64,000 nucleotides of DNA from Hemibagrus wyckioides (lineage: Eukaryota > Chordata > Actinopteri > Siluriformes > Bagridae): NCBI RefSeq assembly GCF_019097595.1, contig NC_080717.1, positions 8,772,501 to 8,836,500 on the forward strand, given 5' to 3'. Below, in pieces: positions 38,736 through 44,605 of the stretch. The position numbers and the translations under genes are program-made. Under the pieces are notes generated by a model, which made no database searches, was not told the origin of the DNA, and saw only the letters and a list, made by a program, of their open reading frames with translations. Positions within the stretch are counted from its first letter, which is position 1. Each line of letters starts with the position of its first letter.

Positions 38736-38896
38736 ATGACAGTGGACAAGAAAATGCAGAGCAACCCTGCTGTTCAAATTCCTCATCATGAGAGAGAAAG
38801 CAACCTCTTACAAGGTGATGACAACTACCTGTCTGATGGGGAGAACATCTTTTTTCCGGGTCCTCTGATGAGGTGAGTGCTTATTTCTCCTCTGAG

Positions 38897-38934
<38 letters not shown>

Positions 38935-41900
38935 GAACATTCAGCAGGAATGTTTGGAAACATATCATCAGCTGGTCAAGGTGTATGTTCAATAATCTGT
39001 ATCCATCCATTACAGCAGTAAGATCCAGATGGAGGACGTGATGCGTTTTATCCAGAGGAAATCCCAGGAGTGCCTACAAAAGGTGGAGGAACCTGACCAG
39101 AAGGAGACCTATTTCTTCTGGAAGGTGATGGAGCTGCGTTGCAGCAAAAATGGAGTAAGCGTTTTAGTTGACTTTCACAGCAAAATTACTCACAATAAAA
39201 GCAGCAAGAGATTTAATAAGCTAAATTTGTCAGCATGAATAAATATACTGTGTCTAGAGTAGTGATGGAAGTTAAGCATGTTTCTTTTACAGAAAGCAGA
39301 GCTGGCAGATGCTGCAACTGTCCTTTTCAAGAACTACAGGCTTCTGAAGAAAAGGGTATAAACTTGTCATTTTATGTTGTAATATGTTATATTAGCTATA
39401 CCTTTGTTTATTAATGCATCAGCATCACCATCTGTCTACTTTTTGTGTTGTTTTTGCTTTATTTGTTGCTGTCTAATGTGCCAATTCCATCTACAGAGAG
39501 CGGTTAAGAACCAAGATAGCTGGTGTCTTTCGCTGGCGAAACTTTTGTGCTCTGCCGACCCAGAAGACGAGATATTGGATGCTCTGATTCGAATGGGACA
39601 GGACCTTGGTATGAATAACATAAACAATATTCTAGGAACTTCACATGTTGTGATCGGATCATGAACTCTGGACTGTTGCACTGACCCAAATCCTTACATG
39701 CATGTTTGGTCTTTCATCTGCAGACTCCAGAGGACTGACCTATGCTGCACAGCTGTGCTACGTAGCTGCAACGGAGGAGTTGCAGATTTTACAGAGCCCC
39801 AGCTTTGAGCTCATTGGCTGTAACAGGTATTGTGTGTGTGTTCGTGTGTGAGAGCGCTTGGGTATGATTATTCTTCTGACTTGCTACTAAGACACTTTTC
39901 TCTTTGTACAGTCTGCCAATCAGGCAATCAGCCATAAGGGAAGCAATTGAACGAACGGAGGTGTATGAATACATATGCTCGCTGACCACAGGGCTTCCCC
40001 AGCCAAATTTCCAAGTTAGAATTTCTCTTTTTATTCCTTTTTAATATTCTTTTTACCAAACTTAAGGATGAACTTTTTTGCTAAGATGGAATGACTCCGT
40101 CTGTCTTAGATCTTCAAGTGCTATCACGCCAGCAGGCTAGCCGAGCTCGGCCTTTTCGACCAAGCCCTCGAGTACTGCGAGGCCATCGCTACAGCAATTG
40201 CTACTTTACCACGGCAAATCACCAAGACCACGATGAAAATGACCATTGCGGTAAATATGATTATTGATACTTGTAAAATGATTCCAAGGTTTTATATACA
40301 AAATATTTAGTCGGTTTATTTTCCGTCTGTCTCGTAGCTGTCTGAGAAGCTACACCAAGGGAAGGAAGAAGAACCGGAGTGGCTGGTAAACCTTCGTCAG
40401 CTGTACGCGGATGGAGTGTATAAGCTGAAGAACTCCGAACGTGGCCTCATGACTAGTGAGATGTTCAGTCTCCAGCGTCCACGTCAGGAAGGCCACATTA
40501 CACCATGGGGTATGTTCATCCACCATTTGGACATAAAACTGTACCTAAAGAATCACACAGCAAAGAATTTACAGTAATGATTTAAAGTCCGGTAAAGATT
40601 TTTAGCACACGTCTGTCAGATCTTTAACACATTACACTGGGCCAAAACAGTCTAATCAGCTTCATATATTTTGCCTGAAAAGGTTTATTAAAAGGTTTGA
40701 ATTTAATATGGTCATATTTATATAAAGTGTACGTTAGTCTTTGGGTAAGAGACAGAAGGGATCAGAGCTTAGGTAGTTGAAAAGATGATTTCAGATTGAT
40801 TTTTCAAGACGACACACTTCTTATTTGTTACTGAATGATTGTATATTTGTTTAACAGAGGTGTTTGAGTCCCTGTACACTCCGGGAGAGCTGCTGGGTGA
40901 AGGAGGCTTCGGGAGCGTCTGTGCAGGAGTCCGTAATGCTGACGGAAAACAGGTAAGCGGACTGCACATCTACAGTTCATTTGCACTAATCGACACAATT
41001 CATCACAACTTATATGTCTTAGTGAGGTTTTCTATAAGAATGTAATTATGTGTTGTATATGCGAACAGGTTGCCATTAAATACGTGGGGAAGGAAATGAA
41101 TGAAGCTTTCATCACCATTGTAAGTAAACTTCCTTTACTTCTGAAGTTATGTGTGGAATTATGTGTCAATTACTAATCCAAGCCTTTTATACTGTAACAT
41201 TTCTGTTTACCATAATTTAGACCTAATCACTCCGCACCCATGCTAAGTGTGTCTGTTTATATTTCAAGCCTGGAGAGACAAACAGCCTTCCTCTGGAAGT
41301 TGCTTTAATGCAAATGGTGTCCAAGCCATATTGCCATGAAAATGTCTTGGAGCTGATCGAGTGGTTCGAGATGTCGGACTGCTTCATCTTGATCCTGGAG
41401 AGACCAATCCCCTGCACAGACCTCCGAAAATTCCTAAAAGGTCACAAAGGGCGACTGTCTGAATCACTGGCAAAACACATCATGCGTCAGGTGGTTCAGG
41501 CCGCTCGCCACTGCTCTGAATGTGGTGTCCTGCACCGTGACATCAAGCCGGAGAATATTCTCATCAACACCGACACACACCAGCTGAAGCTGATAGACTT
41601 TGGCTGTGGTGATTTGCTGCAGGACACCCCCTACAGATATTATGCAGGTAAGCACATCATAGGTCTTGGAAAGAATAAAAACATGCAGTGGAGAACCATT
41701 TTTGTGACGTTGCTCCTTCTGTCTTTTTCACTCAGGAACTAGAGCTTACTTCCCACCTGAGTGGATATGTGAGGGCGAGTATATGGGTGATCATGCTACC
41801 GTCTGGAGTCTGGGAGTTCTACTGTTTGACATGGTATGTGGAGAACTGCCCTTCTGGTGTGAGAAGGACATCGTTGCCCGGGACTTGCACTTTGCTAACG

Positions 41901-44605
41901 ACCTGTCCGAAGGTGAGAAAGTCCAAACACATCAAGTTTAGATATGTATAGTAATGTTGGAAAACTTGCCTTTCACAATAAATGAATCATATTAATTGAT
42001 TTTCCAAAATCTAGAATGTCTGACTAAATGTCTCTCTCATCACTACACACAGGTTGCCGTGACCTGATCCAGTGGTGTCTGGAGCTATATCCTCACTGGC
42101 GCCCAACGTACGAGCAAATCCTCAGCCACCAGTGGTTTGAGGAACCTAAGAAGAATGTCAAGGTGAGTCAGTGAGAAGAGATTAGACCGTAATATATCGA
42201 GCAGAAACATGCTATTACAGATTACATGGCTTGTACTGCTCAGTAACAGAGATTGGTGTGCTTACCTGATTATATGAGATTACACAAATCTAATCACATA
42301 GAGGCTCAAAATAAAAGAGATTATCCTTGATAAAATAGTTTTCAATGAGATCATCTAGAAGTAAAGCTAACAACCCATTAACACACAAAGTAATCTGTGG
42401 CTATAGAAATGTTCAGCTCAAAAATAACACTAAGAAATATGTAGAACACGTTCATTTCACTCTTCTATTCTAGGAAAGTGAAGGCTGTTTCTGTTTAATT
42501 CATTTCTGAAGATGTGTTTGCATTACATGCAGTCAAATATTAGGCATATCCAGTATGATTTATGACGTGTGAATTAAGTATGTACAATACTTTTTTCTGG
42601 TACAGAACCTGTGTCCTCTTCCTGAGAACATCATCACGCCATGGGGTATGTTAGAATCCACCATTTCCAAAAACGTTGCTGTAATGTGTTGCTAGTGAAT
42701 GTATAACTTTTCTGCAGATTTTCTTATTTCAGCTTGATTTGAATGATGGTCTGTTTGTTTAACAGAGGTGTTTGAGTCGTTGTACACCCCGGGAGAGATG
42801 CTGGGTGAAGGAGGCTTTGGGACAGTCCATGCGGGAATCCGTAATGCTGATGGCAAGCAGGTCATTAGACTGTGCATGACATCTACAGTCCATTTGCACT
42901 TAGTAACCATTGTTAAGCGTTTGAAAAATGATCGATGTCCCTGAGGGACAATCCCAGGGTTAAACAATAACACTTGCCTGATTGTCTGGGGCAAAAATAA
43001 AACACACTATGTCAGAACAGCCGAGTTAAAAAAATCATAGATTTTGCAGGGAACTGTTTAGTAACTGAACTATGTAACTGATACCACTGTGACGTATTTA
43101 AATGTTTAATCTTCAGCAAATGCTGAAAATTGGTCTGATTCAGTTGTGTGTTCAGTCAACGTAAAGAAACCGCATTATTTAGTGTCAATCATCTGCAAAG
43201 TGAGAATTGCAGCAAACTGTTGGCAAAATGGGAGTATGAGGCTAAGCCAGTCTGAAGCCTATTGGAATAGATTCATTTTATTTCTGATCACAACTCTGTA
43301 GAAATTATGAATTGTATATGTTCTGTTCATGTTTTACAATAAGAATGTGCATGTTTCTTTATGTCTGAACAGGTTGCACTGAAATATGTGGAGAAAAAAC
43401 CAGAAGATAAATTCATCACCATTGTAAGTAAACTTCTACTTCTGAGATTCTTCTGCAGAGACGACATAGAGTCCAAATAACACCCACCTGATAGACCAAA
43501 TGATGTGTCCGTTTACTCAGTCCTACTAAAATAATCCTAAACTACTTACCTTCAACTTACAGTTCACATTCAGATTGTATTCCCTATCATCCATAATAGA
43601 TATCTGAATCATTACCAGTTCATACCTTCGTATTGTATCATCTCTGATTCAGTAGTTTAGAAGAATTCGCTCCAGTCCAGGACTAACTGTATCTGTTCGT
43701 ATTTCAGCCTGGAGAAACAAGCAGCCTTCCCCTGGAAGTTGCACTAATGAAAAAGGTCTCCAAGCCGCTTCCTTGTGACAATGTGCTGGAGTTGATTGAA
43801 TGGTTCGAGATGTCCGATTGCTACATCTTGGTCCTGGAGCGACCCAGCCCATGCATGGACCTCCAGCAGTTCCTTAAACATCACGACGGCAGATTGTCAG
43901 AAGCACTGGCTCAGAAAATCATGAGCCAGGTGGTTAAAGCCGCTCGCCACTGTTGTCAAGCCGGTGTTTTCCATGGTGACATCAAGGCGAAGAACCTTCT
44001 CATCAACCCTGACACGCTGGATGTGAAGTTAATCGACTTTGGCTGTGGAGCTCTGCTCTCTGACACGCCCTACACAGAATATGAAGGTAAGTGCATAATA
44101 GGTAGGAGACAGAATCAAAGAGAACGAAGTGAAGTTTCAACAGTGCTGACGGTGCTCCTTCTCTCTTTTTTGCTCAGGAACTTGGAGTATCTCTCCACCT
44201 GAGTGGGTGTGCGATGGAGAGTATTTCGGATATCCTGCCACCATTTGGAGTCTGGGAGTTCTCCTTTTTTACCTGGTCTGCGGACACATGCCCTTCCATA
44301 ATGAGGATGACATCTTTTACAGGAAGATGTACTTTGCTCCCGGCGTGTCTGAAGGTGAGGAAATGTAGAAGCATCACCATTTAGAACTGCTGAAGTTTGT
44401 GAAACTGGCATTATAAGATGAATTGATTTTTGAATAATATTAATATCTATCTAAATGTCAAAGCGCTAGCTATAATATCTCATCACTGCACACAGGTTGC
44501 CACAATCTGATAAATTGGTGCCTGGACTTGGAACCTGAATGTCGGCCCACATTTGAAGACATCTTAAGCCATGAATGGTTTAAATCTGGTGAAGGATCTG
44601 AGTGA
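38736..44605 (+). CDS. Sec16-like domain fused to two tandem PIM-like kinases
   Basis: Nineteen exons with agreeing phases: 38736-38872, 39016-39154, 39293-39355, 39497-39608, 39724-39826, 39912-40014, 40110-40250, 40338-40509, 40858-40952, 41069-41119, 41269-41647, 41736-41912, 42053-42162, 42606-42645, 42766-42860, 43373-43423, 43708-44086, 44178-44354, 44496-44605 (877 residues). Exons 1-8 (about residues 1-323) resemble the Sec16 central/ACE1 domain that binds COPII coat at ER exit sites (SLPIRQSAIREAIERTEVY; FQIFKCYHASRLAELGL). Kinase 1 (about 324-594) has GEGGFGSV, VAIK (K359), HRDIKPEN (D463), DFG (D482) and PPEW. Kinase 2 (about 608-877) has VALK (K643), HGDIKAKN (D747) and DFG (D766). 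Both resemble teleost PIM-like Ser/Thr kinases. The first ATG in frame was chosen as start. The exon 2 acceptor is a NAGNAG site (39016 or 39019). The exon 15 donor is the weak gtcatt. Confidence 0.88.
38896..38930. repeat. CA microsatellite in intron 1 of the Sec16-PIM gene
   Basis: A short uninterrupted CA tract lies 24 bases after the exon 1 donor. Confidence 0.9.

Follow-up and report, generated by a model that had tools for sequence, protein, structure and literature searches.

The PIM proteins consist of a kinase domain with short tails, without any large extra domain, and are active without activation-loop phosphorylation or an upstream activator. PIM1, PIM2, PIM3 and the teleost PIM-like kinases have in common the kinase domain, an ERPxP hinge and a catalytic set of residues, all of which recur in the gene described here (positions 38736-44605, forward strand, of a 64,000-nucleotide stretch of the Hemibagrus wyckioides assembly, C8:8772501-8836500, hereafter the window); unlike the PIM proteins, however, this gene places a 300-residue domain of Sec16 type ahead of the kinase, which may moreover be doubled. 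On the Sec16 side, Sec16A is described as binding Sec13 in its beta blade and Sec23 in its C-terminal region (PMC7619307), and ERK2, ERK7 and ULK1/2 are described as kinases acting on Sec16 (PMC7835409).

The gene is one member of a catfish multigene family in which a shortened helical domain of Sec16B type stands in frame with one or two PIM-type kinases. The open frame, the identities of the two domains, their recurrence in 14 catfish species, their linkage in the genome and the catalytic residues of kinase 1 are read directly from the sequence; the fold of the shortened domain and a flexible linker are predicted by structure models, and the helical domain may, with what we judge to be about even chances, act as a docking or self-association arm, tethering to a fixed partner a kinase that is predicted to be always on.

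Gene model and the joint between its domains

The gene model (in which S will denote the Sec16-type part and K a kinase) was read from genomic DNA alone. As re-derived, it comprises 19 exons on the forward strand, separated by introns that are all GT-AG and consistent in phase, and its spliced frame measures 2634 nt, that is, 877 codons and a TGA stop at 44603-44605; this bears out a preliminary description of the stretch, in which Sec16-type exons and kinases had been placed in one 877-codon frame with matching phases. The joint lies between exon 8 (40338-40509), which carries the end of the Sec16-type domain and a linker ending in HITPW, and exon 9 (40858-40952), which encodes the glycine loop of kinase 1; the intron connecting them (40510-40857) keeps phase 1 across 40509/40858, as had been claimed, and no in-frame ATG occurs between the last upstream stop (40836) and exon 9, nor within exon 9. 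The same ITPW-intron-EVFESLYT joint is repeated ahead of kinase 2, at 42645/42766, where exon 14 (42606-42645) carries the second copy of the linker, in agreement with the earlier proposal that the linker had been duplicated. The view that the joint is no artefact of annotation also holds: among the 19 paralogous loci holding both exons, 18 keep a GT-AG intron of 348, 349 or 468 bp at the joint, the sole exception being a decayed copy (L023); 13 of the 19 are near-identical copies of the window gene, and are therefore not independent.

The Sec16-type part and the kinases

Residues 1-323 match the Pfam family TPR_Sec16 (PF12931) at E 5.2e-24, with 86 bits where 22 is the cut-off, and more faintly PF12932, the Sec16 mid-region (20.4 bits, under the cut-off of 23), so that the profile search which the preliminary description had set as a check on this domain gave a significant result. 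They are encoded by exon 1 (38736-38872), in which the first ATG is used and FPGPLM opens the domain, exon 2 (39016-39154), exon 3 (39293-39355), exon 4 (39497-39608), which comes after the site of the missing solenoid middle (see below), exon 5 (39724-39826), exon 6 (39912-40014), with the motif TEVYEY, exon 7 (40110-40250) and exon 8; another 5' exon may lie upstream of 38736, in which case the true 5' end would be further upstream. A sequence search of solved structures gave a single relative, yeast Sec16 as it occurs in complex with Sec13 (3mzk_B, E 2e-8). The part has the character of a helical solenoid of ACE1 type, its fold is predicted with confidence in a structure model, and invariant core residues are kept across the family.

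The family profile aligns to SEC16B at 317-398 and 521-713 only. Compared with Sec16B, regions 1-316, 399-520 and 714-1061 are thus without counterpart, a kinase following instead, and the central conserved domain of Sec16 is itself incomplete, SEC16B 399-520 and 3mzk_B 130-276 being unmatched. In two family models the Sec16 part is predicted to contain no beta strand, and the alignment begins at SEC16B 317 and at position 56 of PF12932; the blade that completes Sec13 would precede these starts and would so be lost, unless a 5' exon so far unseen encodes it. Nothing aligned past SEC16B 713, where a C-terminal Sec23-binding region was looked for; the kept domain could still bind Sec23, because Pfam's own name for PF12931 is 'Sec16 Sec23-binding domain'. 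Of the earlier suggestion of a kinase placed at endoplasmic reticulum (ER) exit sites or on a Sec16-like fold, the Sec16-type domain stands; an ER exit site scaffold is unsupported, the solenoid middle and the flanks being gone.

Residues 324-877 contain two matches to Pkinase (PF00069), and a PDB search gives PIM1 structures as their closest solved relatives (267 bits), the top 42 rows all being PIM1 or PIM2 chains, followed by a PAS-domain kinase at 118 bits, which confirms the kinases as PIM-like. Kinase 1 is encoded by exon 9, exon 10 (41069-41119; VAIK lysine), exon 11 (41269-41647; ERPxP hinge, HRDIKPEN and DFG), exon 12 (41736-41912; PPE to C-lobe) and exon 13 (42053-42162; its end); kinase 2, by exon 15 (42766-42860; glycine loop), exon 16 (43373-43423; VALK lysine), exon 17 (43708-44086; HGDIKAKN and DFG), exon 18 (44178-44354) and exon 19 (44496-44605; its end and the stop). 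Two AATAAA hexamers at 44686-44707, 81 and 97 bases past the stop, may mark the 3' end. The order of exons inside each kinase presumably agrees with exons 2-6 of human PIM1. The proline hinge, ERPEP in PIM1, reads ERPIP in kinase 1 and ERPSP in kinase 2; among 63 first kinases of the family its first proline is kept in 62 and its second in 60. The catalytic Lys, the Glu of helix aC, the HRD Asp, the Asn and the DFG Asp are kept by sequence in both kinases of the window, as is the full set in 55 of the 63 first kinases following an S part; kinase 1 keeps HRDIKPEN, DFG and the ERPxP hinge, and kinase 2 has HGD in place of HRD, with Lys, Asp, Asn and DFG kept. Between the two kinases, nonsynonymous divergence (dN) is 0.239 and synonymous divergence (dS) 0.846 (NG86).

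Two complete kinases had been described, and two Pkinase matches are indeed present, kinase 2 being complete on paper; kinase 2 is doubtful, however, because of a weak donor, of HGD for HRD and of discordant public models. The donor in question is that of exon 15 (CAG/gtcatt), preceding the Lys exon of kinase 2, and gtcatt recurs in 13 of 13 fetched copies from C8 and in the C58 copy. As for the public models, P0001 (KOW79_007154, a predicted protein of H. wyckioides), 100% identical over the Sec16 part by BLASTP, omits exon 10, which carries the Lys of kinase 1, along with the greater part of kinase 2, exon 16 included; it is a merged model which, past exon 15 and one further PIM-like exon, enters exons of a condensin subunit (PF12717). 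P0002 (98%, from a contig of 225,625 bases) has kinase 1 whole, exon 10 being retained, reads through the donor of exon 15 and omits exon 16. The window gene, P0001, P0002 and P0004 represent one gene or nearly identical ones. The acceptor of exon 2 (39013-39018) is a cagcag pair, the second of which is taken by P0001, giving one Ser less than in our gene model. C-terminal exons of the condensin subunit lie at 53825-59869 of the forward strand, and no N-terminal part was recognised by eye in the window.

Range, copies and origin of the family

Three protein searches returned 147 different proteins, 73 of which were set aside as ordinary Sec16 (70 nearly all named mammalian Sec16B, and three others, one from a plant and two from contigs). 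The layouts of 75 sequences, including the window and ignoring domains of fewer than 100 profile positions, are S-K (58), S-K-K (six), S alone (five), K-S-K (two) and S-K-S, K-S, S-S and S-S-S (one each). S stands directly ahead of K in 67 of them, from one contig (P0108) and 14 catfish species, two each in Hemibagrus, Tachysurus, Ictalurus, Clarias and Silurus, the others in Ameiurus, Pangasius, Pangasianodon and Bagarius; the lineages of Hemibagrus, Bagarius and Prochilodus were looked up, and we take the other S-K genera to be catfishes. Outside catfishes these searches, which were word-based and limited in length, found no fusion save P0108. The layout, for which the preliminary description knew of no example, is therefore not unique: a whole family stands among the public predicted proteins, unnamed or hidden under names such as MARK-A, fibroblast growth factor receptor-like and protein kinase C-like. 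In Clarias P0031, P0034 and P0129 a kinase precedes the Sec16 part, either from merged neighbours or as a true K-S-K layout.

The figures for the H. wyckioides genome refer to places among the matches listed, the rows being chosen by hand. A kinase row lies on the same strand at most 4 kb away at 34 of the 37 Sec16-type places, the others being C8:11388497, C10:7040892 and C5:14059923; the kinase at C2:13223156, without a listed Sec16 place, follows the end of an exon 8, the other Sec16 exons lying adjacent, inverted and broken. Sec16 exons followed by kinase exons are found in 19 of 20 stretches fetched at other Sec16-type matches, L020 having lost exons 3-10 and 13; independent cases are few, 14 of the 20 (C8 array and C58) being near-identical, as are five from C16. 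In L029 and L030, on other chromosomes, Sec16, kinase 1, the linker and the start of kinase 2 succeed one another up to the end of the fetched stretches. The 877-codon frame is fully open in the window and in L011, L012, L014, L017 and L021, and five copies on C16 have an open S-K1 frame of 593 codons. Between the window gene and the C16 copy L024, the one pair on which the value for S rests, dN/dS is 0.37 for S and 0.34 for kinase 1 by NG86, and 0.53 and 0.40, respectively, by YN00.

The copies on C8 form a young array, with at least 14 Sec16-kinase copies, in both orientations, over about 1 Mb (C8:8811236-9800206); their exons are mostly 97-100% identical, and several copies have deletions. 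In the two C16 copies looked at, L024 and L028, the donor of exon 11 is GC, not GT. Upstream of exon 1 in the C16 copies L024-L028 lies a match to residues 54-113 (67-113 in L024 and L025) of an N-terminal extension of P0003, which opens with a hydrophobic stretch resembling a membrane anchor; in the stretches fetched, no such anchor was found, and the extension has no significant match in the window.

In a tree built on the Sec16 part, the 63 fusions with good coverage group together in a single clade (support 99/95), the Prochilodus sequences P0142 and P0143 are its sister, and mammalian Sec16B lies outside. The three largest subfamilies each span several catfish families, and the Sec16 and kinase distances over the 63 fusions are correlated (r 0.84; best of 2000 permutations, 0.17). 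Our reading is that of one old fusion followed by joint duplication; judged from these sequences, the fusion probably took place once, before the sampled catfish families split, in a Sec16B-like gene already without the solenoid middle. The shortening probably predates the fusion, because Prochilodus magdalenae (Characiformes) shares the internal gap: P0141-P0143 are shortened Sec16-like proteins, P0142 having the same gap as the family; they differ in that no kinase is present in the models, two of the three being partial. P0141 and P0143, the partial models, have a C-type lectin domain ahead of the shortened Sec16, either an unusual pairing or a merged model.

As for the neighbourhood of the gene, a lone PIM-like glycine-loop exon lies downstream at 50053-50136 (forward strand), around which a tblastn search with the fusion protein did not find the rest of a kinase gene. 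By eye, frames resembling sqstm1/p62 are seen at 2345-5881 (forward strand), frames resembling the V-ATPase a subunit at about 16400-27700 (reverse strand), and frames resembling Tc1-type transposases and retrotransposon polymerases at 30167-31328, 37181-38362, 45507-46941 and 54998-58067.

Possible roles and parallels

In the docking-arm proposal the helical arm would bind a partner or self-associate, steering or clustering the kinase; the partner would be Sec16, coat protein complex II (COPII) or another ER-side protein, and the kinase would act without an upstream activator, as PIM does. Because of the Sec16 descent, ER exit sites are the most natural and the single most likely address of the predicted protein; since most known contact sites of Sec16 are gone, this address is rated below the general proposal, and is rather to be doubted. 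Several observations weigh against the proposal as a whole: the locus is known from DNA sequence alone; the Foldseek TM-score against 3mzk_B is low (0.31); the regions of Sec16 with published partners, in so far as they are described (PMC7619307), are absent from the family; one or more of the five catalytic residues are missing from 8 of the 63 kinases, in some of them because the predicted model has gaps; and S stands alone in five sequences, namely the three Prochilodus models, P0013 and P0134, the last ending inside the kinase. P0108, with 611 residues encoded on 2,397 bases, looks like a spliced transcript but could be an intronless copy. Damaged copies, which also count against the proposal, are frequent: among the 14 fetched C8 and C58 copies, two bases of exon 1 are deleted in L009, L013, L015 and L016 (where a later ATG could take over), exons 5-6 are missing as well from L013 and L016, kinase 2 is damaged in L010, L019 and L022, and L018 and L020 have decayed. 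Decay is also seen in L023 and L031.

The alternative that survives best, improbable as we hold it, is that the Sec16-type part is a passenger, a solenoid remnant adding only bulk or stability to an ordinary PIM-like kinase: the apparent loss of the partner-binding regions would fit, as would its faster divergence (mean identity 47%, against 54% for the kinase) and its slightly higher dN/dS, but its position ahead of the kinase in 67 of 75 sequences, its invariant core, its confident predicted fold and, in one pair, dN/dS below 1 argue against it. It is distinctly improbable that the fusion has no role in the animal, most of its copies being duplicates that are decaying or not expressed; near-identical tandem copies, several of them broken, and the recurrent weak donor of kinase 2 point that way, and are countered by the open copies of 877 and 593 codons, by the constraint seen in dN/dS and by the retention of old subfamilies in several catfish families. 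We likewise give little credence to an immune-type sensor, in which the Sec16-like domain would be an integrated bait for pathogen factors hitting ER export and the kinase the alarm output: the range restricted to catfishes (and one contig) in the searches made, the tandem arrays (at least 14 copies at 8.81-9.80 Mb of C8 among the matches listed), the strong divergence of subfamilies and the decay of copies are traits in common with immune gene families, but tandem growth is known in other fish families too, and pairwise dN/dS is below 1. A wrong joining of neighbouring Sec16-like and PIM genes, for which the single ATTAAA hexamer inside intron 8 (40687) might speak, is hardly credible in view of the phase-1 GT-AG joint in 18 of 19 loci, of the stop at 40836, after which no ATG precedes the kinase, and of the Sec16-then-kinase order in 14 species.

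The docking-arm proposal may be carried further, to a catfish-specific kinase class whose PIM-type kinase, permanently carried by a reduced Sec16 solenoid, would bring built-in, always-on phosphorylation to ER-export sites or to proteins recognising Sec16, its many copies giving a tunable or pathogen-facing control of secretion; this we regard as unlikely. If expressed, the proteins would offer a natural experiment on the working of a Sec16 solenoid that has lost its usual contacts, and the family would be a clear case of domain shuffling, from a shortened module (as in Prochilodus), through capture of PIM-type exons, to growth to dozens of copies.

A partial literature search found no paper treating Sec16 and a PIM kinase together and, as far as searches show, a coat-scaffold fold joined to a kinase is undescribed. 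The galectin-kinase of Fugu likewise joins an odd domain to a teleost kinase; the domain differs, and the main text of that paper makes no mention of Sec16 (PMC3359783). LRRK2 bound to Sec16A is likewise a kinase tied to Sec16, but as described it is a binding of two proteins (PMC7251075), whereas here the link would be covalent and the kinase of PIM type.

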